From Polynucleobacter sp. MWH-P3-07-1 (GTDB taxonomy: Bacteria > Pseudomonadota > Gammaproteobacteria > Burkholderiales > Burkholderiaceae), in contig NZ_CP061296.1 in NCBI RefSeq assembly GCF_018687555.1, positions 1,565,983 to 1,629,982 of the forward strand: a stretch of DNA of 64,000 nucleotides. The letters are read 5' to 3'. Under the pieces are notes generated by a model that was not told where the DNA came from, searched no databases, and was given only the letters and a program-made list of their open reading frames with translations. Positions 25,175 to 36,341 of this stretch are shown here, piece by piece. How positions within the stretch are numbered: position 1 is the stretch's first letter; each line of letters starts with the position of its first letter. The position numbers and the translations under genes are program-made.

Positions 25175-26269
25175 TCAATATTTCAGGCGAATGCTCAATT
25201 TATCCCACAATAGCCAAACTAAGGCTAGGGGTAGCCATGCTATGGAGACCCATTGCATTAAATCATTGAAATGCAATAAGCGCCCCTGATACCAATGGCG
25301 CAGAGTCAAAATAAAATAGGGGTTATCAGGCAATACATAGATTGCTAAAGTACTCCCGAGCAAGCAAACCAAAGCCAGCCACGTTTTTAAAACTATCGGC
25401 AACTGCAATGCCCATTTCAAAATTACGCTGGCGATCAGCATTCCCCAGAGTGCGCCATCAGTCAACCAAAGCAAGCTGTACTCAGTGCCAAACTGTAAGG
25501 CGGTGAAGAGTGTTTTGATGAGCACGGTCAGCAATAGCAAGCCATTGAGAATGCGCCACTGTGGCGCCTTTGGTCTCATCCCCAAAGAAAGGAGTAAAGC
25601 AGCGCCCAGCCAGCAGATTGAGGTAATCAATGTCTCCTGTAAAAAATGGTTAACCACCGTGGTACCCCAATCAATCGAGCCAAAAATGGCTTGCCCCCAT
25701 ACCCCAGTACCCAGCCAAGAGCTTTGCGGATAAATCTGAGCCCAAGGAAAAAGCAGCAGTAAGGCACAAGCAATCCAATTCAGACCAAACCACTGGTCAA
25801 AACATCGTCTAATGACGCTTCCGGAAAGCCATTCTGGCCCCAAGGGGATAGCTAGCAAGCCTCCCAAGACGCCGCCCAGAATATTTGCCCACCAATCCAT
25901 CTGACTCGGAATACGGGTCGGTAGCCAAGTTTGAAGAGATTCCACGAGGAACGCCAATCCAGCACTAGCCAAGAGCGCTAATCCCAAGGCCACAAAATTG
26001 CGCCAACGTGGATAGGCAGCAAAAACCAGCAAAAATCCCAGCGGGATATAAGCCAGGATATTGACCGAAACATCAAAGAGGGTAATGAAACGGGGTAATG
26101 GGGCATCCAACCAGGCCCAGGGGGCTAGGCTAGTTTCAAAGTCAAAATCGAAGGGATTCAGGCTTACATACAGAATTAATAGTGCATAGGCAAGACTCAA
26201 CACCCTAGCCATAGGCATGGCCTGCACTGGCCAAACTAATTTTCGGGGTCTTTGATCTTGAGCATGCAT
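25175..26269 (-). CDS. VanZ family membrane protein
   Basis: The 364-residue protein is highly hydrophobic, with about nine to ten predicted helices. The N-terminal third carries the VanZ-like pattern: LNPFDFD after the first helix, SVNILAYIPLGFLL, and SLQTWLPTRIPSQMDWWANILGG. The C-terminal half has further helices. VanZ proteins are linked to glycopeptide resistance in Gram-positives but most members have no known role. It starts 37 bases from the divergent birA. Confidence 0.85.
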   Translation of the reverse strand: MHAQDQRPRKLVWPVQAMPMARVLSLAYALLILYVSLNPFDFDFETSLAPWAWLDAPLPRFITLFDVSVNILAYIPLGFLLVFAAYPRWRNFVALGLALLASAGLAFLVESLQTWLPTRIPSQMDWWANILGGVLGGLLAIPLGPEWLSGSVIRRCFDQWFGLNWIACALLLLFPWAQIYPQSSWLGTGVWGQAIFGSIDWGTTVVNHFLQETLITSICWLGAALLLSLGMRPKAPQWRILNGLLLLTVLIKTLFTALQFGTEYSLLWLTDGALWGMLIASVILKWALQLPIVLKTWLALVCLLGSTLAIYVLPDNPYFILTLRHWYQGRLLHFNDLMQWVSIAWLPLALVWLLWDKLSIRLKY

Positions 26270-26306
26270 TCCCCAATTCTAGGCTAGACCTTTCTACAAT
26301 AGTCTA

Positions 26307-27101
26307 ATGAGTAGCCATTGCATCCTTGAACGCGTCGCAGAAACCGAATCTACTAATGATGACCTCATGGCGCGCTGGCGCGCTGGTGAGTTAATTGATC
26401 CGATTGCACGTCTAGCTCAAAATCAGACCGCCGGCAAAGGTAGAGCAGGTCGATCTTGGTTAGCCAGTCCACAGGATTCACTTTGTTTTTCCTTGGCATA
26501 TCCCTTCCAAAGAAAACTCGCAGACCTCTCTGGTTTGAGTCTCCTAGTTGGATTAGCGGTAATCTCGGGGATCTCAAAAGCACTAAATCTTTCAGAAGAT
26601 ATTCTCTACCAAAGGGGATTACGCCTCAAATGGCCAAACGATTTATTGCTAAATCAAGGAAAGCTAGGCGGCATTTTGATTGAAGGTGGTCAAACAAAAA
26701 TCGGCGATCCAAGCTGGATGATTATTGGCATTGGGATCAATCTACAAAATGCGCGGGCTTTTAATGAGGCGTTGCACCAAGAATATCCCATTACCGCATT
26801 AGATCAACTCCTCAATCCGCAAGAAACAGTGCCCGATGCAGAATGGATTTGGTTAAAAATGGTTGAGGAATTGGAATCTGTACTGTCTCAATTTGATCAA
26901 ACAGGTTTTAGCCAATATCAAAAACTTTGGATGCATTGGGATGCTTACCAAAATCATCCTGTCCGCATTACTGGTGCAGGCCAAGAAGCGATTGAGGGGA
27001 TTGCGCGAGGAATCGATGCTTCTGGTGCCCTTAGATTAGAGACTGAAGAAAAAATGATCAGCATTCATGCGGGAGATGTTTCCTTGAGGATTACAAAATG
27101 A
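26307..27101 (+). CDS. birA: Biotin-[acetyl-CoA-carboxylase] ligase
   Basis: BirA activates biotin as biotinyl-AMP and attaches it to the biotin carboxyl carrier protein. The 264-residue protein begins directly in the catalytic domain (ETESTNDDLMARW), has the biotin loop GKGRAGRSWLASP with KWPNDLLL and KLGGILIEG, and a small C-terminal SH3-like domain. It lacks the N-terminal helix-turn-helix of the E. coli repressor form, so it should not regulate transcription. It overlaps coaX by four bases. Confidence 0.95.
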   Translation: MSSHCILERVAETESTNDDLMARWRAGELIDPIARLAQNQTAGKGRAGRSWLASPQDSLCFSLAYPFQRKLADLSGLSLLVGLAVISGISKALNLSEDILYQRGLRLKWPNDLLLNQGKLGGILIEGGQTKIGDPSWMIIGIGINLQNARAFNEALHQEYPITALDQLLNPQETVPDAEWIWLKMVEELESVLSQFDQTGFSQYQKLWMHWDAYQNHPVRITGAGQEAIEGIARGIDASGALRLETEEKMISIHAGDVSLRITK

Positions 27102-27916
27102 GTCTCTACTTATTGTTTGATATTGGCAATACCCGAATGAAATGGGCTGCAATTGAATCCACTCATAATCCCTCTGATCGTCAGAAAAAATTATGGGCTT
27201 ACTCTGGTTCAATCAGTAGTAAATCTTTAGAGTCTGCTGAACATCGGGCTGAACTTGCTGACTATATTGCTAAGACCCTTCCCAAACCCGATGCCATTGC
27301 TTTTGCTTGCGTCGCCGGCGACCGAGCAATCACCAATCTGAAAACACTGTTTCCGCAATGGGATGATCTGGTCTGGCAAGAACTCACTGGCAACACTACA
27401 TTCAATGGAATGCGGACGCTATATCAAGAGCCTAAGAAGCTTGGGGCAGACCGCTGGGCTGGCCTCATCGGCGCTCGCGCACTATCCAGCACCAATACTT
27501 TAGTGGTCAATAGTGGAACGGCAACGACGATTGATTTACTGGGAGCTAACGGTATACATTACGGCGGCTGGATTCTGCCAGGCTTAGATTTGATGCAATC
27601 CGGGCTGCAAGTCAATACTGCTCAGCTACCTCTAGCTATTCGCTCAGCCGAGCACTCCGGCTTTGGACTCAATACCAACGATGCAATCATTTCTGGATGT
27701 GATGCAGCACAGCTTGGCGCAATTGAATATGCAGCGCAGATTGCTAAGTCAATCAATCATCCAATTGAGCGGATTTATTTAGATGGCGGTAATGCCAAAA
27801 TTTTGCATCAAGCGATTCAAAAAGGCTTAACGCCAAGCTTAGGCCTTGCTGAATGCGTTGATGGTTTAGTGCTACGCGGACTATGGTCCTGGCTACTGCA
27901 GTCTCAAAAGTCTTAA
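27098..27916 (+). CDS. coaX: Type III pantothenate kinase
   Basis: CoaX phosphorylates pantothenate, the first step of coenzyme A synthesis. The 272-residue protein has the N-terminal phosphate-binding FDIGNTRMKW, the GADRWAGLIGAR segment and VNSGTATTIDLL in the nucleotide-binding core. The ATG overlaps the birA stop (ATGA). Pairing of birA with coaX is widespread in betaproteobacteria. Its stop overlaps that of hldE by four bases on the opposite strand. Confidence 0.96.
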   Translation: MSLYLLFDIGNTRMKWAAIESTHNPSDRQKKLWAYSGSISSKSLESAEHRAELADYIAKTLPKPDAIAFACVAGDRAITNLKTLFPQWDDLVWQELTGNTTFNGMRTLYQEPKKLGADRWAGLIGARALSSTNTLVVNSGTATTIDLLGANGIHYGGWILPGLDLMQSGLQVNTAQLPLAIRSAEHSGFGLNTNDAIISGCDAAQLGAIEYAAQIAKSINHPIERIYLDGGNAKILHQAIQKGLTPSLGLAECVDGLVLRGLWSWLLQSQKS

Positions 27917-28401
27917 GACCGAATACGCCCTAATAAGGTAGTGGTTGAGCGCTCATATACGAAAGGGATCGCAATCGCTTTGCCACCCCAAGTCTTAACC
28001 AGTTTTGTCTCATCGAGCGTATCAATTTCATAATCACCGCCCTTGACGTAAATATCTGGACGAATCTGCTCAATGAGCTTCACAGGGGTTTTCTCAGTAA
28101 AGATTGCTACGAGATCTACGCTCTCCAACGCTGCTAAGAGTGCTAGGCGGTCTGCCTCATTATTAATAGGTCGATCATCACCTTTGCCCAGCATTTTGAC
28201 TGAGACATCTGAGTTGACCCCAACCACCAAACTAGCGCCTAAGGATTTTGCTTGCGCAAGATAGCTTGCATGGCCGCGGTGAAGAATATCGAAAACCCCA
28301 TTAGTAAAAACCAGAGGTCTGGGTAATTGTGCAATCCGCTCGTGTAACTGCTCAGGCGGGCAAATTTTTTCCTCAAAAGATGGCATTGGCAGCGAAGTCA
28401 T
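27913..28401 (-). CDS. D-glycero-beta-D-manno-heptose 1-phosphate adenylyltransferase, stand-alone
   Basis: This 162-residue protein matches the C-terminal adenylyltransferase domain of HldE/RfaE: FTNGVFDILHRGHASYLA holds the HxGH nucleotidyl-transfer motif, and NSDVSVKMLGKGDDRPI and RPDIYVKGGDYE follow. It makes ADP-heptose for the LPS inner core. The kinase half is not adjacent, so this is the split (RfaE2-type) form common in betaproteobacteria. Confidence 0.92.
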   Translation of the reverse strand: MTSLPMPSFEEKICPPEQLHERIAQLPRPLVFTNGVFDILHRGHASYLAQAKSLGASLVVGVNSDVSVKMLGKGDDRPINNEADRLALLAALESVDLVAIFTEKTPVKLIEQIRPDIYVKGGDYEIDTLDETKLVKTWGGKAIAIPFVYERSTTTLLGRIRS

Positions 28402-28435
28402 GACTCAATATTAAAGGCTTTTGATACTGTCAAAC

Positions 28436-28453
28436 GACATTCCCCAGAATGTC
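28436..28453. promoter_or_regulatory. Perfect 18-bp dyad upstream of the gpx operon
   Basis: The 18 bases GACATTCCCCAGAATGTC form a perfect 7-bp inverted repeat with a 4-base spacer, 41 bases upstream of the gpx ATG. The left arm also pairs with TGTC at 28428-28431 as TGTC-AAAC-GACA. It looks like a binding site for a dimeric regulator rather than a terminator, because it has no following T run and stands between divergent genes. Confidence 0.5.
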
Positions 28454-28493
28454 TTAGACTTGCACACCTAGACACCTTATTTACAGGCGCACC

Positions 28494-29075
28494 ATGACCC
28501 AATTTCATAGATTAATAGCACTTCTGAGCATGACTCCATTTTTACTAGGATTAGGCATGAATTCCGTTAAAGCTGCACCAGCAAGTTGCAGCCCCTTGCT
28601 TTCTCATACCTTCCCCCGACTGCAGGACGAAGCGCCTCAAAATCTTTGCCAATATCAAGGCAAAGTACTGTTAGTCGTCAATACTGCCAGCTACTGTGGC
28701 TTTACGGGTCAATACGAAGACTTAGAAAAGATCTATGCCAAATATAAGGACCAAGGCTTTGTCGTTTTAGGATTTCCGTCGAATGATTTTGGTCAGCAAG
28801 AACCGGGTAGCAATAAAGAAATTGCTGACTTCTGTAAAAATACCTACGACGTCAAATTTCCAATGTTTGCCAAGAGTTCTGTGAGCGGATCAAGCGCGAA
28901 TCCCTTGTTCAAAATGCTGATTGCCAAAACTGGCACAACTCCCAAATGGAATTTCTATAAATACCTAATCGATCGCAATGGCAATGTAGTCGATTCTTTT
29001 GGAAGCATGACCAAACCAACCAGCAGCAGTGTGGTTGATGAAATCCAAAAGCTCCTAGGGGAAAAAGTTCAGTGA
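28494..29075 (+). CDS. Glutathione peroxidase family protein, exported
   Basis: This family reduces hydrogen peroxide and lipid hydroperoxides using thiols. The 193-residue protein has a signal peptide (about residues 1-28), the catalytic cysteine Cys68 in NTASYCGFTGQYEDLE, a Gln in NDFGQQEPGS and a Trp in KWNFYKYL, completing the catalytic site. It uses Cys, not selenocysteine. The signal peptide places it in the periplasm, unlike many bacterial homologues. It heads a five-gene operon and overlaps the next gene by four bases (GTGA). Confidence 0.93.
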   Translation: MTQFHRLIALLSMTPFLLGLGMNSVKAAPASCSPLLSHTFPRLQDEAPQNLCQYQGKVLLVVNTASYCGFTGQYEDLEKIYAKYKDQGFVVLGFPSNDFGQQEPGSNKEIADFCKNTYDVKFPMFAKSSVSGSSANPLFKMLIAKTGTTPKWNFYKYLIDRNGNVVDSFGSMTKPTSSSVVDEIQKLLGEKVQ

Positions 29076-30460
29076 GTAAAAAAAGAATTGCCATCATTGG
29101 CGCAGGTATTTCTGGCCTTGGTTGCGCCTATGCATTAAGACAGTGTCCTGAGACTGAAATTACCCTCTATGAAGGCGGCGATCATATTGGCGGCCATAGC
29201 AATACAGTAGATTTTTCTTTAGATACCCCAGAGGGCAAAATTCAATACGGGATTGATACTGGTTTCTTAGTGTTTAATCGCAAAACCTATCCTCGTTTGC
29301 TGCGCTTATTTGAGCAGATCAAAGCACCGATCGCGAATTCTGAAATGTCTTTTTCTGTTTCGATCTCGCCTGATGATCAACATCGCGGTGACCGCAAGAT
29401 TGAGTGGGCTGGCAATGATCTCAATTCTTTTTTTGGACAAAGAGCAAATCTATTCTCTAGATCATTCTGGACAATGGCTTACGATATTTTGCGCTTTAAT
29501 CGTCTTGCCACTAAGTTGGCTCAGAAACAAATCCTTGCTGGGCAAGAATATGCAGAACCTGATGAGCCTATCGCTGATTTTTTAAATCGCAATCGCTTCA
29601 GCCAAAGCTTTAGAGAGAATTATTTTCTTCCGATGATTGGTGCAATCTGGTCATGCTCAGTTGAGCAAATGCTGGAGTTCCCAATTCAAACGATGGTGCG
29701 CTTTTGCCATAACCACGGACTATTACAAATCCAGAATCGTCCCCAGTGGCTTACAGTCCAGGGCGGATCCAGAGAATATGTACAGCGTATCGTAGCCGCG
29801 CTCGAGCAACATCAAGTAAAAATTCAGCGGGAAGCAGTGATTCAAGTCAATGCTAGTCGAGATGGCGATTCGCCAGTCGAAGTCATCAGTTCAAATGGCA
29901 GCGCTCTATTTGATGAAGTGGTGATGGCCTGTCATAGTGATCAAAGTTTACAAATCGTCAAAGGCATCGATCAGACTGCGCAAAACATTTTGGCTGCCAT
30001 ACCCTATCAAAAGAACCGCGCCTTTTTGCACACGGACCAGCATTTCCTACCCAAAACACAACGCTGTTGGGCAGCCTGGAATTACACCGCTAAATCTGGT
30101 GCAGCACCTTCCGCAAAGAAACACGTGAGCGTGAATTACCTCATCAATCGTTTGCAGCCTTTGCCAGACGCGCTGAAAACGATACCCATCATTGTGAGCC
30201 TTAACCCATCAACCGAACCAGATCCTCAATTGGTACATGCAGAGATTGAATACTCCCATCCCGTTTTTGATATGGCGGCCATTCAGGCGCAAAAGCAATT
30301 GCCGTTGATTCAAGGAAATAATGGAATTTGGTATTGCGGTGCATGGACGGGCTTTGGCTTTCATGAAGATGGCTTGCGCTCGGGTGAACTGGTTGCAGAA
30401 GACTTACTTGAAAATATTCACTCGCCCTCACAATCTCGTCGGACCCAAGACGCCCAATAA
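29072..30460 (+). CDS. FAD-dependent amine-oxidase-like oxidoreductase
   Basis: The 462-residue protein begins with a Rossmann FAD loop (IAIIGAGISGLGCAYAL) and ends with a GIWYCGAWTGFGFHEDGLRSGELVAEDLL motif typical of amine-oxidase-like flavoproteins of the COG2907 group. Members sit beside DUF1365 and Cfa genes in many proteobacteria and are thought to act on membrane fatty acids or lipids, but no defined reaction is assigned here. The start is GTG overlapping the gpx stop. Confidence 0.9.
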   Translation: MSKKRIAIIGAGISGLGCAYALRQCPETEITLYEGGDHIGGHSNTVDFSLDTPEGKIQYGIDTGFLVFNRKTYPRLLRLFEQIKAPIANSEMSFSVSISPDDQHRGDRKIEWAGNDLNSFFGQRANLFSRSFWTMAYDILRFNRLATKLAQKQILAGQEYAEPDEPIADFLNRNRFSQSFRENYFLPMIGAIWSCSVEQMLEFPIQTMVRFCHNHGLLQIQNRPQWLTVQGGSREYVQRIVAALEQHQVKIQREAVIQVNASRDGDSPVEVISSNGSALFDEVVMACHSDQSLQIVKGIDQTAQNILAAIPYQKNRAFLHTDQHFLPKTQRCWAAWNYTAKSGAAPSAKKHVSVNYLINRLQPLPDALKTIPIIVSLNPSTEPDPQLVHAEIEYSHPVFDMAAIQAQKQLPLIQGNNGIWYCGAWTGFGFHEDGLRSGELVAEDLLENIHSPSQSRRTQDAQ

Positions 30461-31246
30461 ATGAATCAAGCCAAGATCAATTTTGGATTCGTTAAACATC
30501 GTCGTTTTAGACCAGCTCAAAATGCGTTTTCTTATGGAGTCTTTACGCTATCCATTCCGATGCGCTCCAGAAAACAAGCCCCTCAACTGTTAAGCAAGCA
30601 TGGGGTTAGCGATAACCAAGCCGGCTTATTTGCTTTTCATGATCGAGATCATGGCCAAGGGGGCAACTGCTCCCTTCAGTGGATTGAGAAAATCCTAGAG
30701 GCAAACCACATTCACAATGTTGATGGCGAGATCTGGCTACAAACCTTCCCCAGAATATTGGGCTACGTTTTTAATCCTGTCAGCCTTTGGCTATGCACTC
30801 GCGCCAATGGTGAAGTTCAGGCAGTTCTGGCAGAGGTCAATAATACTTTTGGTGAGCGGCACTGCTACCTTCTATTTAAAGATTCGGGCGAAGCTCTCCG
30901 CTCCGGGGAGACCCTGCTCTCTCAGAAAGTCTTTCATGTTTCTCCATTTTGCTCGGTGAGCGGCGAATACCACTTCCGCTTTCTCTTTCCCAACGATAGC
31001 AATAGCAAGCATCACTCTCTATGCCGTATTGAATTACATGAGGATGGCCTGCCCTTAATTCATACCAGTATCAGCGGGGAGGCGCGTGAGCTAAGTCGAA
31101 AAATGCTTTATGTAGCATTCTTGCGTTATCCTTTAATGAGCCTAGGGGTGATTTTTAGGATTCACTGGCAAGCCTTGAAGTTATGGCTTAAAGGCGTTCC
31201 TTTTCACTCAAAACCCAAACCTCCTGAACTTGAAGTAAGCAGATGA
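30461..31246 (+). CDS. DUF1365 family protein
   Basis: The 261-residue protein matches DUF1365: it starts [20 protein letters not shown] and has the conserved [16 protein letters not shown] and [15 protein letters not shown] segments. Its function is not known; the family nearly always neighbours an FAD oxidoreductase and a Cfa-type methyltransferase, as here. The ATG directly follows the preceding stop codon and the end overlaps cfa by four bases. Confidence 0.92.
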
Positions 31247-32523
31247 ATCGTCCCGGTCAATCCCTTCTCTCTCGTCTGAGCTTCTCGCGCCCCGAGAGAA
31301 AAAATAGCAAACCCCATCAGGGAGGCTTTGCTGCAACTTCATTACTGAAGCTACTGGAAAAGCTCCAGACTGGATTTCTGGTGATGCGCCTTCCGGATGG
31401 CAGTACTCGCCAATTTGGATCATCGTCGGACACCCTGCACGCTGAAATTCAAATTCTAGATTGGTCTGTCTTTAAAGCTACCCTTTCCCATGGCGATATT
31501 GGTTTTGCCGAAAGCTATATCAAGGGTCACTGGGATACGCCAGATTTAAAAGCCATACTAGATTTGGCTGTTTGTAACCGTGCCTTACTAGAAAAAGTGA
31601 TCTACGGTAGCTGGTACGGATCTCTGTTTTATCGCATCAAACATTTTCTGAGGGATAACACGAAGTCGGGTAGCCGAAAAAATATTCACGCACATTACGA
31701 TCTTGGAAATGCCTTTTATACGCTTTGGCTGGATCCAACCATGAGCTATTCCAGCGCATGGTTTGCCAATGACGATAAACGAACATTAGCTAGCGCCCAA
31801 AAAGCTAAGATTGAGCGCATTCTTCAATCTCTTAACACCAAACCCAATAGTGACATCCTAGAAATTGGCTGTGGCTGGGGCGGCTTTATGGAAGAAGCTA
31901 TTCATGCAGGCATGAATGTCACCGGACTCACTCTATCGACCGAACAAAAGCGCTATGCAGAAGAGCGGCTGAAAAATCTTGGTAGCCAGAATCAGTTTGA
32001 AGTGCGCCTTCAGGACTATCGAGACTGCAAAGAACGATTTGACGGAATTGCCTCGATTGAAATGTTCGAAGCGGTTGGTGAAAAACACTGGCCTGAATAT
32101 TTTCAAACGATCGCACACTGCCTCAAAGAGAGCGGTAAAGCCTGCATTCAGACGATCGTGATTGCTGATGAACTTTTTGCACGCTATCGTAATAGCACAG
32201 ACTTTATCCAGCAATATGTGTTCCCAGGCGGAATGCTGCCATCGCGTTCAGTATTTAAATCCTATGCTGAAAAGGCAGGCTTGAAAATTGAATCTGAATT
32301 TGCATTTGGTCTGGACTATGCAAAAACCCTTTGTGTTTGGCGTGATAGCTTTAATGGGAAGCTACAAGAGGTAAGACGTCTTGGGTTTGATGAAGCTTTT
32401 ATTCGCCTATGGAATTTCTACTTAATGTACTGTGCCGCAGGCTTTGCTCAGGGCAGTATTGACGTCATTCAATTCACACTCAGCCATCAACCCAGGCTAC
32501 AGCCCCATGAGGCCTTTCACTGA
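31243..32523 (+). CDS. Cyclopropane-fatty-acyl-phospholipid synthase family methyltransferase
   Basis: Members transfer a methyl or methylene group from SAM to unsaturated acyl chains of membrane phospholipids. The 426-residue protein has an N-terminal lipid-binding-like domain and a SAM domain with [15 protein letters not shown] near residue 207, [27 protein letters not shown] and [14 protein letters not shown]. In this operon it could be a Cfa enzyme or the UfaM-like methyltransferase of furan fatty acid synthesis; the sequence alone does not decide. Confidence 0.9.
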
Positions 32524-33299
32524 TGAAACAAAAAGGTATCGGGCAATTTGCAGGCAAACGAGTCTGGGTCATTGGGGCTTCTAGCGGAATTGGTGAAGCC
32601 TGCGCCAAGGCCTTACTTTCACAATCTGCCAAAGTCGCCTTATCTAGTCGTCGTGTTGAGCGACTGAATACGATTGCAGCGGAATATTCCCAATCTCAGA
32701 GCTTGGTTCTTCCTCTGGATGTTACTCATACAGAGCAAATGCAAGCTGCCTATCAAACCATCTCGAATCAATGGGGAGGAATTGATTTACTCCTTTTTGT
32801 CTCAGGCCTTTATATTCCGCTGAGAGCAGACGAATTTGAGATAGATGCTGCTGAAAAAACGATTGATGCGAATTTACTGGGTCCGATGAGAGCCGTATCG
32901 ATTGTCTTGCCTGCCATGCTCAAGGCACATGATGGACATATCGCAATTGTGGGGAGTGTAGCGGGCTATAGTGGCTTACCTAAAGCACTAGCTTATGGTC
33001 CAAGCAAAGCAGGCATCATCAATTTTTGCGAGACCCTGTTTTATGACTTGCTTCCCCAAGGAGTGAGCGTTCATATGATTTCTCCCGGGTTTGTCGCTAC
33101 GGAGGCTACGGCTCAAAATGATTTTGAAATGCCTGCACTGATCACTGCGGAAAAAGCTGCCCAAGAAATCTTATCTGGCATTCAAAAAGGGGGGTTTGAC
33201 ATTCACTTTCCGAAGCAATTCTCAGGTTTTTTGAAGTTCCTCAGAATTCTGCCCTACCCGATTTATTTCTGGATTGTCAGACGCTTCGTGAAGATTTAA
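32523..33299 (+). CDS. Short-chain dehydrogenase/reductase
   Basis: A 258-residue SDR: NAD(P) loop VIGASSGIGEACAKAL near residue 16, a serine in VGSVAGYSG and the catalytic YGPSK pair near residue 158-162. It overlaps the cfa stop by one base (TGATG), so it is the last gene of the gpx operon. SDRs at this position in similar operons are linked to lipid modification, but the substrate is unknown. The C-terminal RFVKI tail is hydrophobic with basic residues, compatible with membrane association. Confidence 0.9.
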   Translation: MKQKGIGQFAGKRVWVIGASSGIGEACAKALLSQSAKVALSSRRVERLNTIAAEYSQSQSLVLPLDVTHTEQMQAAYQTISNQWGGIDLLLFVSGLYIPLRADEFEIDAAEKTIDANLLGPMRAVSIVLPAMLKAHDGHIAIVGSVAGYSGLPKALAYGPSKAGIINFCETLFYDLLPQGVSVHMISPGFVATEATAQNDFEMPALITAEKAAQEILSGIQKGGFDIHFPKQFSGFLKFLRILPYPIYFWIVRRFVKI

Positions 33300-33321
33300 T
33301 GCCTCTAGCAAGAGAGAGAGA

Positions 33322-33978
33322 TTATTTGTAGCGGTCCTTGCGAATCTTGTCTTCCAAGAAAGTCATCACCTCAATTGCCTTCGCTTTAGAGCCTGCTATA
33401 GAAGGTGAAGTAACGTAGCGACCTTGCATCACAATGGTTGGCACGCCATCAATGTGATATTGCATCACCAATTGGTTGGCTGCTTTTGCTTTTGAAACAA
33501 CCGCAAACGAGCGATAGTTCGTTAAAAATGCATTGCGGTCGATGCCCTGCGAGGCTACCCAATCCGCAATTTCGTTTTCAGTTAAGAGGCGTTTATTTTC
33601 TTTATGAATTGCATAGAAAACTTTGTCATTCAGAGCATCGGCCTTACCCATGGCCAATAGCGCATAGTAAAGCTGGCTATGCGGTAAAAAATCCTCTCTA
33701 AAGGCAACTGGTACTCTTTGGAAAGCAACATCTTTTGGCTGGCTCTTAACCCATGCACTTAAATCAGGTTCAAAGTCATAGCAGTGTGGACATCCGTACC
33801 AAAAGAATTCGATAACCTCAACCTTTCCCTTTGCTGTAACTGGCTGCGCATCAGGCAATACTCGATATTCAAATCCTTCTTCAATTTTTCCGCCAGGTAT
33901 TTTGCCTTGCGCGTTTGCTACCCCAACTAGTAGTAAGCAGGAAATAAAAAGGATTGCTCTTCTATTGAATGTGATCAT
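33322..33978 (-). CDS. dsbA: Thiol:disulfide interchange protein DsbA family
   Basis: DsbA introduces disulfide bonds into exported proteins. The 218-residue product has a signal peptide (about residues 1-23) and the thioredoxin-type CPHC active site in FFWYGCPHCYDFEP, with the cis-proline loop GVPTIVMQG near the C-terminus. It overlaps the upstream SPOR gene by four bases, and together they lie between the gpx operon and argS. Confidence 0.94.
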   Translation of the reverse strand: MITFNRRAILFISCLLLVGVANAQGKIPGGKIEEGFEYRVLPDAQPVTAKGKVEVIEFFWYGCPHCYDFEPDLSAWVKSQPKDVAFQRVPVAFREDFLPHSQLYYALLAMGKADALNDKVFYAIHKENKRLLTENEIADWVASQGIDRNAFLTNYRSFAVVSKAKAANQLVMQYHIDGVPTIVMQGRYVTSPSIAGSKAKAIEVMTFLEDKIRKDRYK

Positions 33979-34565
33979 GATTTATTGGATTTAATCAGGG
34001 TGGTTTTGATGCCCATTTTGCTTAGCTTATCGCTGATCGCTTTACTATCATCGGCTGAGTTGAATGGACCAACTCTGACCCGCCACACCGTATTGCCATC
34101 AGTTGTGAGCTCGCTGAGCTGCGATTGCACTCCCTGAATCGCTAAGTTTGCTTTTTGAGCATCTGCATCTGCTTGCTTACTAAAAGCGCCCACTTGCAAA
34201 AAGAATACAGCGTCTGCTTTGGCCGCTGGGGCCGGATCAGGAGCTTTCTTGCCACTAACTAAATCCCCAATCGGGTCTAAAGCCGGAGCTGTAGTTTTAC
34301 CCTGCAAGGGCTTATTCAGATCTAGAGGTGCTGGCGGCGTCGAATCCTGGCCATCTGAGCTTGGGGCAGATTTGATATTCAACGGGAGATTTGTGGCGCG
34401 CACTCCAGGTCTTTCCTGGGGTGTATTTTTGGACAAGTAAAACGCAATCAAAAGAGCGGCACCAAGACCGACTGCAAGGCCAACCACAAATCCGATGAGG
34501 GTCCCGCCATATTCAGAATGGTCTTGAGTTATGAAGCGCGACAATTGATTCGGTTTTTTCATCAT
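33975..34565 (-). CDS. SPOR domain protein
   Basis: The 196-residue protein has one membrane helix (about residues 23-44), a Pro/Ala-rich linker, and a C-terminal SPOR domain (about residues 120-196) starting FFLQVGAFSKQADADAQKANL and containing TVWRVRVGPF. SPOR domains bind glycan strands stripped of peptides at division sites. Two adjacent ATG codons exist; a Shine-Dalgarno AGGA fits the second better. It is followed by dsbA and preceded by argS. Confidence 0.92.
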   Translation of the reverse strand: MMKKPNQLSRFITQDHSEYGGTLIGFVVGLAVGLGAALLIAFYLSKNTPQERPGVRATNLPLNIKSAPSSDGQDSTPPAPLDLNKPLQGKTTAPALDPIGDLVSGKKAPDPAPAAKADAVFFLQVGAFSKQADADAQKANLAIQGVQSQLSELTTDGNTVWRVRVGPFNSADDSKAISDKLSKMGIKTTLIKSNKS

Positions 34566-34598
34566 ATCCTCATCTTACATTTTCACTTCAAGCCTAGC

Positions 34599-36341
34599 TC
34601 ACATCTTAGCGGGTGCTGAAACCCCTAGCAATTTCAGGCCATTTTGCAGCACTTGTCGCGTTGCAGAAAGCAAAGCGATACGCGCCAATTTTAAGGCTGG
34701 ATCATCGACCAAGACCCGGTCAGCATTGTAAAAAGTATGGAAATCTCCTGCTAAGTCTCGCAGATAAAAAGCGAGGACATGAGGTGCTAGCTCGGTTGCT
34801 GCCGCTGCCAACATTTCCGGATATTCAGCCAAGCGCCTTAAAAGATGATCAGAGGCCTTGCTATTCAGCAAGGATAAATCTGCAGTCATCAACTCACTCG
34901 GCTGACCACCCCACTGTTGGAGGATGGAACAAATCCGTGCGTGGGCATATTGCACATAAAACACAGGGTTCTCATCATTTTGTTGCAGAGCTAAATCAAT
35001 GTCGAATACGAATTCAGTATCAGCTTTGCGCGAAATTAAGAAGAAACGCACTGCATCACGACCACGCTGCAAAGCAAGGGCACGATCTGCCTCGTTCATC
35101 TCATCACTAACACCACCAGACCATTCAACCAGATCTCGGACGGTGACATAAGATCCTGCGCGCTTAGAAATCTTCACTTCCTCGCCATTACGCATCACGG
35201 TTACCATCTTATGTAAGACATACTCAGGATAGGTTTTGGGAATAGTCCATCCCCGCTTTTGTGCTACACCCTGAAGACCTGAGCGAACTCGTGCGATCGT
35301 ACCGTGGTGATCGCTTCCCTGAACATTAATGACCTTCTCAAAGCCACGTTGCCACTTGCTGGTATGGTAGGCAACATCAGGCACAAAGTAAGTAAAACTT
35401 CCATCAGACTTGCGCATCACACGATCTTTATCGTCTCCATCCGAAGTCGTATTGAGCCATAAAGCGCCCTCAGACTCATAGGTCTTTCCGACCTGACTTA
35501 AGTCTTGCACGATTTGAGCAACACTGCCATCGGTATATAAAGAAGATTCAAGATAGTAACAATCAAATTGCACACCAAACGTTTTAAGATCAATATCTTG
35601 TTCATTGCGCAAATAGGCAACTGCAAACTGACGAATCGCCTCCAAGCGATCTTCTGCGGAAGCGCTAGATATATCTGCTGCAGACCCTTTAAATGCCTGT
35701 GCAATATCAGCAATATATTCACCGTTATAAGCCTGCTCCGGCCACTCTGAATCGCCAGGCTTTAGTCCATCAAGACGTGCCTTAACTGATAGCGCCAGAT
35801 TGGCGATTTGTACGCCTGCATCGTTGTAATAAAACTCTCGATGTACACGTATACCTTGGGTAGCTAATAAATTAGCTAGAGCATCACCAAGTGCGGCCTG
35901 TCTTCCATGTCCAACATGCAAAGGGCCCGTTGGGTTAGCAGAGACAAACTCGATCATGGCTTTAGGAGAATTTGGGCCAGCCGGGACAACTCCAAAAGCT
36001 TCGCCAGCAGTCAAGACCTCATTGATCACCGAAGTCTTAGCTGCATTACTCAAACGGAAGTTAATAAATCCTGGACCAGCAATCTCACAAGCTTGAATTA
36101 ACTCATCATAGCCAGCCTGTATTTTGAGGCGCTCGACTAGAGCTTGAGCCAATTCCCGAGGATTCATTTGCCATGCTTTAGCAATCTGTAGTGCAATATT
36201 GCAAGCAACATCACCATGTTCAACCGCTTTAGGCCGCTCCAGGCGTGGCTCAGCCGGCTGCGCTTGGCCATGCTCTAGGGCCAAACTCTTTAAAGCGGCG
36301 CTCAGCATGGCGACTAAACGATTTTTATTGGTTAGCAACAT
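34599..36341 (-). CDS. argS: Arginyl-tRNA synthetase
   Basis: ArgS charges tRNA-Arg. The 580-residue class I enzyme has the HIGH-equivalent in [20 protein letters not shown], the [18 protein letters not shown] segment, a KMSKS-equivalent VKISKRAG loop, and a C-terminal anticodon-binding helical domain ending in [11 protein letters not shown]. It is in the same orientation as the SPOR and dsbA genes and starts 35 bases from the divergent DUF1840 gene. Confidence 0.97.

Follow-up and report, generated by a model that had tools for sequence, protein, structure and literature searches.

The 64,000-nucleotide stretch of the Polynucleobacter sp. MWH-P3-07-1 genome analysed here (NZ_CP061296.1, positions 1,565,983 to 1,629,982; hereafter the window) carries an operon of five genes on the + strand, at 28494-33299. 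We read it, with a probability of about 0.7, as a furan fatty acid operon combined with a periplasmic lipid-peroxide reductase, probably descended from an operon controlled by the light-response regulator LitR, which is missing here. The ufa system is a known one; here it has a form led by a glutathione peroxidase (GPx), with no adjoining regulator.

The operon is confirmed as a unit of overlapping or abutting genes, as the earlier note on this DNA had it: the successive junctions measure a 4-base overlap, 0 bases (abutting), a 4-base overlap and a 1-base overlap. Gene 1 (28494-29075; 193 aa; Pfam GSHPx 2.8e-36) is the GPx; gene 2 (29072-30460; 462 aa, GTG start; Pfam Amino_oxidase 2.4e-16 and NAD_binding_8) specifies a flavin adenine dinucleotide (FAD)-dependent, acyl desaturase-like protein; gene 3 (30461-31246; 261 aa; Pfam DUF1365 6.2e-74) a DUF1365 protein; gene 4 (31243-32523; 426 aa; Pfam CMAS 1e-84) an S-adenosylmethionine-dependent fatty acyl methyltransferase; and gene 5 (32523-33299; 258 aa; Pfam adh_short 1.4e-43) an oxidoreductase of the short-chain dehydrogenase/reductase (SDR) family. 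The DUF1365 gene was found once in the host genome, a single contig of 1.71 Mb. As DUF1365 is present in 117 of 121 Polynucleobacter genomes (95 of the 96 with completeness >=90% and contamination <=5%), the operon is not a chance arrangement. We inspected 37 of these 117 loci (20 + 17). GPx stood with the four lipid genes in 32, counting L038 and L043, where the DUF1365 frame was skipped by the picker of open reading frames (ORFs) yet matched in the genus-wide search; the lipid genes were located elsewhere, without GPx, in two (L034, L045), and the operon was decayed in three.

For genes 2-4 the best reading is ufaD, ufaO and ufaM, and these assignments by family and synteny appear strong. 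The described pathway starts with the methylation of cis-vaccenate to 11Me-12t-18:1 by UfaM; UfaD then adds a double bond, giving 11Me-10t,12t-18:2, and UfaO, the DUF1365 protein, converts this diene to the furan fatty acid (FuFA) 9M5-FuFA, the oxygen coming from O2. These three genes are enough for the synthesis (Lemke et al. 2020, PMC7380195). The same three enzyme families of the R. sphaeroides and R. palustris pathway are found together in the window operon by Pfam, shared loci and tree, with UfaD assigned by family and synteny with RSP1091/RPA2571 (PMC7380195). Thus the link to furan fatty acids, raised in the earlier note, holds and was understated, since the set is the complete ufaD-ufaO-ufaM pathway. 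We scanned genome contigs with a UfaO alignment and kept the best 80 loci, a set biased toward near relatives; its top matches were from Polynucleobacter (79% identity, Polynucleobacter sp. 73C-SIWE). By tblastn, UfaD and UfaO occurred together in all 80 of these loci, with a Cfa-type gene in at least 79, SDR in 69 and GPx in 61, these neighbourhood counts being lower bounds as several contigs stop within the locus.

The locus numbers of ufaD, ufaO and ufaM are consecutive in R. palustris (RPA2571, RPA2570, RPA2569; PMC7380195), as the genes adjoin in the window, and the three ufa genes are also consecutive in Halomonas, whose UfaM produced 11-methyloctadec-12-enoate in E. coli (PMC12089945). 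In R. sphaeroides, by contrast, ufaM lies far from ufaD and ufaO (PMC12089945). An SDR is associated with the window operon as RSP1087, of the same family (PMC7074977), is with that of R. sphaeroides, where FuFA was made without RSP1087 (PMC7380195). The window operon differs from both of these systems in being led by GPx and in that the RpoE-ChrR pair was not found in its genome. A predicted operon of Aeromonas salmonicida likewise contains cfa, SDR, FAD-dependent oxidoreductase and DUF1365 genes; that cluster is lowered by external riboflavin, and GPx is not named there (PMC10012899).

Gene 4 had earlier been labelled as Cfa-type, and this label has to be changed. We aligned 33 ufaO-linked methyltransferases (one from the window, nine from plasmid records and 23 from other loci) with eight ordinary cyclopropane fatty acid synthases (Cfas), including that of E. 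coli, and five other proteins; six of 39 planned linked rows (L034, L133, L137, L138, L150 and L168) were left out for having no full ORF. The residues of the bicarbonate site of E. coli Cfa are C139, E239, H266, I268 and Y317 (PMC3132707, PMC11387697). At the H266 position we observed Q in 33 of 33 ufaO-linked proteins and H in all eight Cfas; at the C139 position, S in 32 of 33 (L186 retains C) and C in all eight; the motif EAVG occurred in 33 of 33 versus EHVG in eight of eight. The window protein retains E, I and Y and carries S and Q for C139 and H266, which departs from the canonical Cfa site. In the tree, the ufaO-linked proteins together with L088 and L090 were set off by a 99/96 branch from the Cfa group (98/85). 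A label test on the tree gave three changes for the ufaO-linked rows, since two rows had been given the label 'other': L088, whose methyltransferase is in the same cluster and not adjacent, and L090 (Methylophaga), which has no annotated DUF1365 within 8 kb. Given this residue signature and the 99/96 branch, we assign the methyltransferase to the UfaM type and not to the cyclopropane synthases; identity with an ordinary Cfa was rejected on the Q/S residues and the tree placement. It is the only full-length CMAS gene of the genome, which has one partial match besides (31.9 bits).

Gene 1 is predicted to encode a periplasmic glutathione peroxidase. In an alignment of 93 sequences, with a few genomes present twice, residues C68, Q102, W152, N153 and C114 and the pair C32/C52 were at least 97% invariant; we take C68, Q102, W152 and N153 to be the catalytic tetrad (peroxidatic Cys, Gln, Trp, Asn). 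These are accompanied by a predicted export signal, hydrophobic and spanning roughly residues 1-28 (cleavage site placed by eye). A crude measure of hydropathy, used with no negative control, showed a hydrophobic N-terminus in the window protein and in all 91 relatives scored. The additional C32/C52 pair, ahead of the catalytic domain in the window protein and 92 relatives, possibly forms a periplasmic disulfide. The GPx matches of the genome are one strong and two weak, with one weak match above the cut-off. GPx was found 5' of ufaD in 60 of the best 80 loci, namely 41 of 43 Polynucleobacter loci (taken as L096-L136, L143 and L154) and 19 of 37 outside the genus; in L153 the match lies 3' of ufaD, unlike the other 60 of 61. 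A periplasmic GPx is therefore placed within the ufa operon of many Betaproteobacteria, and the peroxidase lead seen in the earlier note, although correct, is not special to this genome, LitR-linked loci being among the 60.

A link between GPx and ufa genes was not found among the papers listed by searches of the open-access PubMed Central (PMC) literature. Related systems have been described. The S. oneidensis PgpD is an exported periplasmic GPx dependent on RpoE2, and the RpoE2-ChrR regulon of that species likewise joins periplasmic GPx, photolyase and Cfa-type genes in an oxidative stress response (PMC4336711); there, however, the GPx gene belongs to a different operon, pgpD-hemH2, transcribed under an extracytoplasmic function (ECF) sigma factor, whereas the window GPx is the first gene of the ufa operon, with no sigma factor. 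The R. capsulatus GPx BsaA1 adjoins rpoE-chrR and is induced by singlet oxygen, and FolE2 belongs to the RpoE regulon (PMC7074977). In Chlamydomonas, singlet-oxygen induction of CFA1, CFA2, GPX5 and a DUF1365 gene requires SAK1 (PMC4067076).

Cases of operon decay mostly fit one functional unit. In genomes G016, G102 and G107 (loci L039, L040 and L064) we observed stops or frame breaks in several, not all, of the operon genes, with the flanking CoaX, RfaE2 and DsbA genes intact. In G105 (L193) the stretch from GPx to DsbA showed no remnant of the four lipid genes, and the GPx has a stop in the signal region and an altered N153. Three of the four decayed genomes thus have a GPx damaged along with their lipid genes, and the fourth, G107, an intact GPx.

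The regulators adjoining the lipid genes in other bacteria agree with the earlier comparison to operons beside RpoE-ChrR or LitR-type regulators. Among 11 DUF1365 loci from plasmid records, an ECF/anti-sigma pair adjoined in five (L089, L091, L092, L094, L188), MerR in three (L087, L093, L185), TetR in one (L088) and neither in two (L184, L186); in L094, UfaD-UfaO stand without an adjoining methyltransferase. In the best 80 loci, tblastn found at least 24 LitR-type MerR genes, 17 DPRP photolyases, 11 FolE2 genes and one weak ECF match, with 0 matches to ChrR; GPx was in front in 12 of the 24 LitR-containing loci. A B12-type LitR/CarH regulator, often together with a photolyase, adjoins the operon in divergent Polynucleobacter and in other Betaproteobacteria. 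Divergent Polynucleobacter similar to P. cosmopolitanus have the order photolyase-LitR-(divergent)-GPx-(FolE2)-UfaD-UfaO-UfaM-SDR-SnoaL, and the P. cosmopolitanus LitR has MerR_1, B12-binding_2 and B12-binding domains above the cut-offs. A metagenome-assembled genome of P. meluiroseus (L125) retained the photolyase alone beside GPx, with no LitR. This distribution suggests that the window operon probably descended from a LitR-controlled light-response operon.

Boxes of the form TTGTC-N3-GACAA (<=1 mismatch) were present in 30 of 31 LitR-linked intergenic regions (L035/L143 and L036/L133 being the same genomes), with 39 boxes observed versus 0.3 expected in shuffles (maximum 4). The pattern was picked after a first inspection; of 13 regions whose sequence was not then displayed, 12 had a box at <=1 mismatch. 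Such betaproteobacterial boxes (e.g. at L131:962-1924) are unlike the Pseudomonas TGTACA-N12-TGTACA. The light operons phrB-ufaM under the Pseudomonas LitR proteins PplR/PmlR are polycistrons with FAD oxidoreductase, SDR and UfaM, as in the window, and a light-inducible FolE is under the same regulators (PMC9758184); they differ from our case in that LitR was not found in the window genome and in the type of box of the relatives. Five of the 37 inspected genus loci have a gene of FolE2 size inserted after GPx and ahead of ufaD; two of these genes were confirmed by Pfam as folE2, a type I GTP cyclohydrolase (L041:6736-7539 and L035:10736-11530).

Upstream of the window operon a promoter block, GACATTCCCCAGAATGTCTTAGACTTG (28436-28462, + strand), is conserved in relatives. 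Of 63 unique upstream regions, 59 contain its TAGACT (28455-28460), likely the -10 element, 50 contain TTAGACTT and 46 contain the LitR box-like core TGTCTTAGAC. In 52 of the 63 sequences, column identity is mostly 0.75-1.00 in the block, with 0.31 and 0.43 at 28442-28443, and ∼0.25-0.5 in the flanks (28422-28430 and 28463-28482); as the 52 were selected for holding AATGNCTTARACT, columns 28448-28460 are high partly by construction, and columns 28435-28447, outside the selected motif, show identity mostly of 0.75-0.92. The best LitR-box candidates of the window, ATGTCTTAGACTT and TTGATACTGTCAA, have three mismatches each to TTGTC-N3-GACAA. The core TGTCTTAGAC is identical to the core of a box (CTGTCTTAGACAT) in the divergent Polynucleobacter loci L130 and L132; since the whole site has three mismatches, descent of the window element from a LitR box is only a suggestion. 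The block has a single exact copy in the genome. A regulon sharing it was considered and rejected, with one exact copy and one 3-mismatch site versus one match in the reversed control. A sigma-70 scan was uninformative (two promoter-like sites versus 7.2 expected), and no Rfam match to RNA regulators was found in 26000-36000.

The earlier note had stated that control must come from elsewhere, with no sigma factor, anti-sigma factor or photolyase gene adjoining, and we agree on both counts. None of these stands beside the operon, and the two photolyase-family genes found in the genome, at 233.6 kb and 365.3 kb, lie outside the window (1566.0-1630.0 kb). The P. cosmopolitanus LitR protein matched 12 of 121 genus genomes (E<=1e-20), not including this one, and the three MerR_1 matches of the genome are, by eye, two short regulators and one DNA methylase. 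The RpoE-ChrR pair was not found in a genome search with Sigma70_r2 (three matches), which a very divergent sigma factor could escape; one match is an ECF sigma factor, beside a DUF3619 gene. RpoE-type control was set aside, with no ECF-ChrR pair found and no TGATC-type element conserved upstream (by eye). The genome has a free-standing double ChrR-type cupin protein, without an anti-sigma domain, which aligns to the cupin part of ChrR alone (L059:4751-5404, ∼1302.8-1303.4 kb; an amino acid permease adjoins, by eye). The DPRP photolyase, of the family that adjoins the operon in relatives, is here at ∼365.3 kb (L198:1802-3361), without the conserved promoter block, and the nearest box (<=2 mismatches) is ∼1.3 kb upstream of it.

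Furan acids are scavengers of singlet oxygen. In the mechanism we propose, UfaM would methylate cis-vaccenate (18:1) to 11-methyl-18:1, UfaD would turn this into a methyl diene with conjugated double bonds, and UfaO would insert oxygen taken from O2 and close the furan ring to give 9M5-FuFA, presumably by the steps of R. sphaeroides and R. palustris. On membrane phospholipids the methylated furan fatty acids would serve as sacrificial scavengers, and the exported GPx would reduce the periplasmic lipid hydroperoxides that singlet oxygen leaves. As for regulation, we infer that LitR was lost and that the conserved promoter is bound by another factor or is an unregulated one.

That the operon makes furan fatty acids is the most likely outcome on the evidence of its genes; still, other outcomes have to be weighed. 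It would be a cyclopropane operon if the methyltransferase were an ordinary Cfa and the accessory genes functionally unrelated, which we consider highly improbable. The best NCBIfam matches are indeed cyclopropane synthase models, but all score under the cut-off (PRK11705: 263.5 vs 400) and the window protein is placed outside the E. coli Cfa group. Cyclic acids, too, were detected on over-expression of Halomonas ufaM in E. coli, a host with a cfa gene of its own (PMC12089945). For the type strains of four Polynucleobacter species, however, Table 4 of PMC5018217 lists 11-methyl C18:1w7c (P. asymbioticus 3.1%, P. yangtzensis 8.1%, P. sinensis 1.1%, P. duraquae 4.2%) and names no cyclopropane acid; judging from its name, the listed acid would be the UfaM product. 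These same values of 1.1-8.1% of total acids would also suit a pathway that stops early, in which 11-methyl-18:1, perhaps along with the methyl diene, is itself the lipid made for the membrane, UfaD and UfaO having drifted to another step. In P. sinensis, 11-methyl-18:1 equals the remaining 18:1w7c, both at 1.1%, and furan acids are missing from the peaks listed for the four strains (PMC5018217). We consider an early stop unlikely, given that UfaO is retained across the genus (117 of 121 genomes) and that an alignment of 25 UfaO sequences, drawn from Polynucleobacter and other Betaproteobacteria, shows 52 invariant columns. Furan acids in Polynucleobacter were not found reported among the papers listed by searches of the open-access PMC literature. 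Since routine fatty acid profiling assigns names only to peaks in its library, a furan acid could have escaped notice. It is also conceivable, if rather doubtful, that GPx is a separate peroxide-defence gene on a shared promoter and that the operon is something other than a light or singlet-oxygen module: P. sinensis (L034) and G031 (L045) have lipid genes without adjoining GPx, GPx is not in front in half of the LitR-linked loci, and G107 combines an intact GPx with broken lipid genes. On the other side stand the position of GPx ahead of ufaD in three quarters of the best 80 loci, including those of Burkholderiaceae and Oxalobacteraceae, the adjoining LitR or photolyase in many GPx-led loci and the common predicted regulon of periplasmic GPx and phrB/cfa genes in Shewanella (PMC4336711).

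Several further points, as well as the lack of reported furan acids, weigh against a GPx-supported furan operon of LitR descent. The cotton enzymes GhCPS1 and GhCPS2, with similar substitutions (I729 is printed at one position), yield cyclopropanes (PMC3132707). The Q/S signature thus marks the family and leaves the product unfixed. Summed feature 7 of the MIDI system can include a cyclopropane C19 acid. Of the four type strains, P. duraquae is without 'summed feature 7 (including C19:1w6c)', and the other three have it at 0.3-2.0% (PMC5018217). The 11-methyl-18:1 speaks for UfaM activity alone, and its buildup could reflect slow UfaD and UfaO. For P. sinensis, the gene and chemistry data come from the same strain (locus L154 is that of MWH-HuW1, identical within L034); as the lipid genes there, in the order ufaD-ufaO-ufaM-SDR-SnoaL, have no GPx beside them, the lipid branch is independent of GPx in this species. 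The case for a loss of LitR here, over a gain elsewhere, is one of parsimony. In the ecological data, PnecC was resistant to singlet oxygen yet harmed by H2O2, which loosens the ecological link (PMC3965437), and as the operon is genus-wide, its presence alone cannot explain the difference between PnecA and PnecC.

The freshwater lifestyle proposed in the earlier note is borne out, Polynucleobacter being a lake bacterium. The genus is abundant in lakes. Its ufa operon, with the exported GPx, offers a concrete, testable singlet-oxygen mechanism, and we name it as a candidate basis for the way in which Polynucleobacter tolerates singlet oxygen, so far unexplained. In water from humic lakes, singlet oxygen raised the numbers of P. 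necessarius (PnecC) or left them unchanged and H2O2 lowered them, and the genomes of abundant freshwater clades are reported to be without RpoE/ChrR homologues (PMC3965437). The P. asymbioticus genome paper lists the GPx Pnuc_1970 and speaks of 'no unusual adaptations' (PMC3308952). Going further, one could tentatively picture an orphaned light-response operon that, in the main Polynucleobacter lineage, lost its B12 photoreceptor-repressor LitR, whose box relic is now a conserved element under a new regulator, and which is the missing basis of singlet-oxygen tolerance in humic lakes; we hold this fuller version possible, at less than even odds. It would be an example of a light-stress module persisting without its light sensor.

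The predicted UfaO model (pLDDT 84.8, pTM 0.85) is strand-rich and has two helices at the C-terminus. It had no Foldseek match at E<=0.001, and no sequence relative of UfaO was found in the PDB at E<=1. The best VIA-align matches, the spirocyclase OlmO (Z 7.5, rmsd 3.8, 127 aligned) and nitrobindin (Z 6.9, rmsd 4.3, 135 aligned), are both below Z 8 and within the chance range; a calycin-like lipid barrel is thus a lead only, and a lipid-holding barrel would suit an enzyme working on an acyl chain.

The operon is flanked on its 5' side by a divergent RfaE2-like gene (start 28401) and on its 3' side by a convergent DsbA-like gene (end 33322), both named by eye. Mobile elements are suggested elsewhere in the genome, at ∼1.30-1.33 Mb, by genes resembling recombinases and by a DNA methyltransferase whose N-terminus is of the MerR type (L059:8222-8794, L083:2298-5510; by eye).

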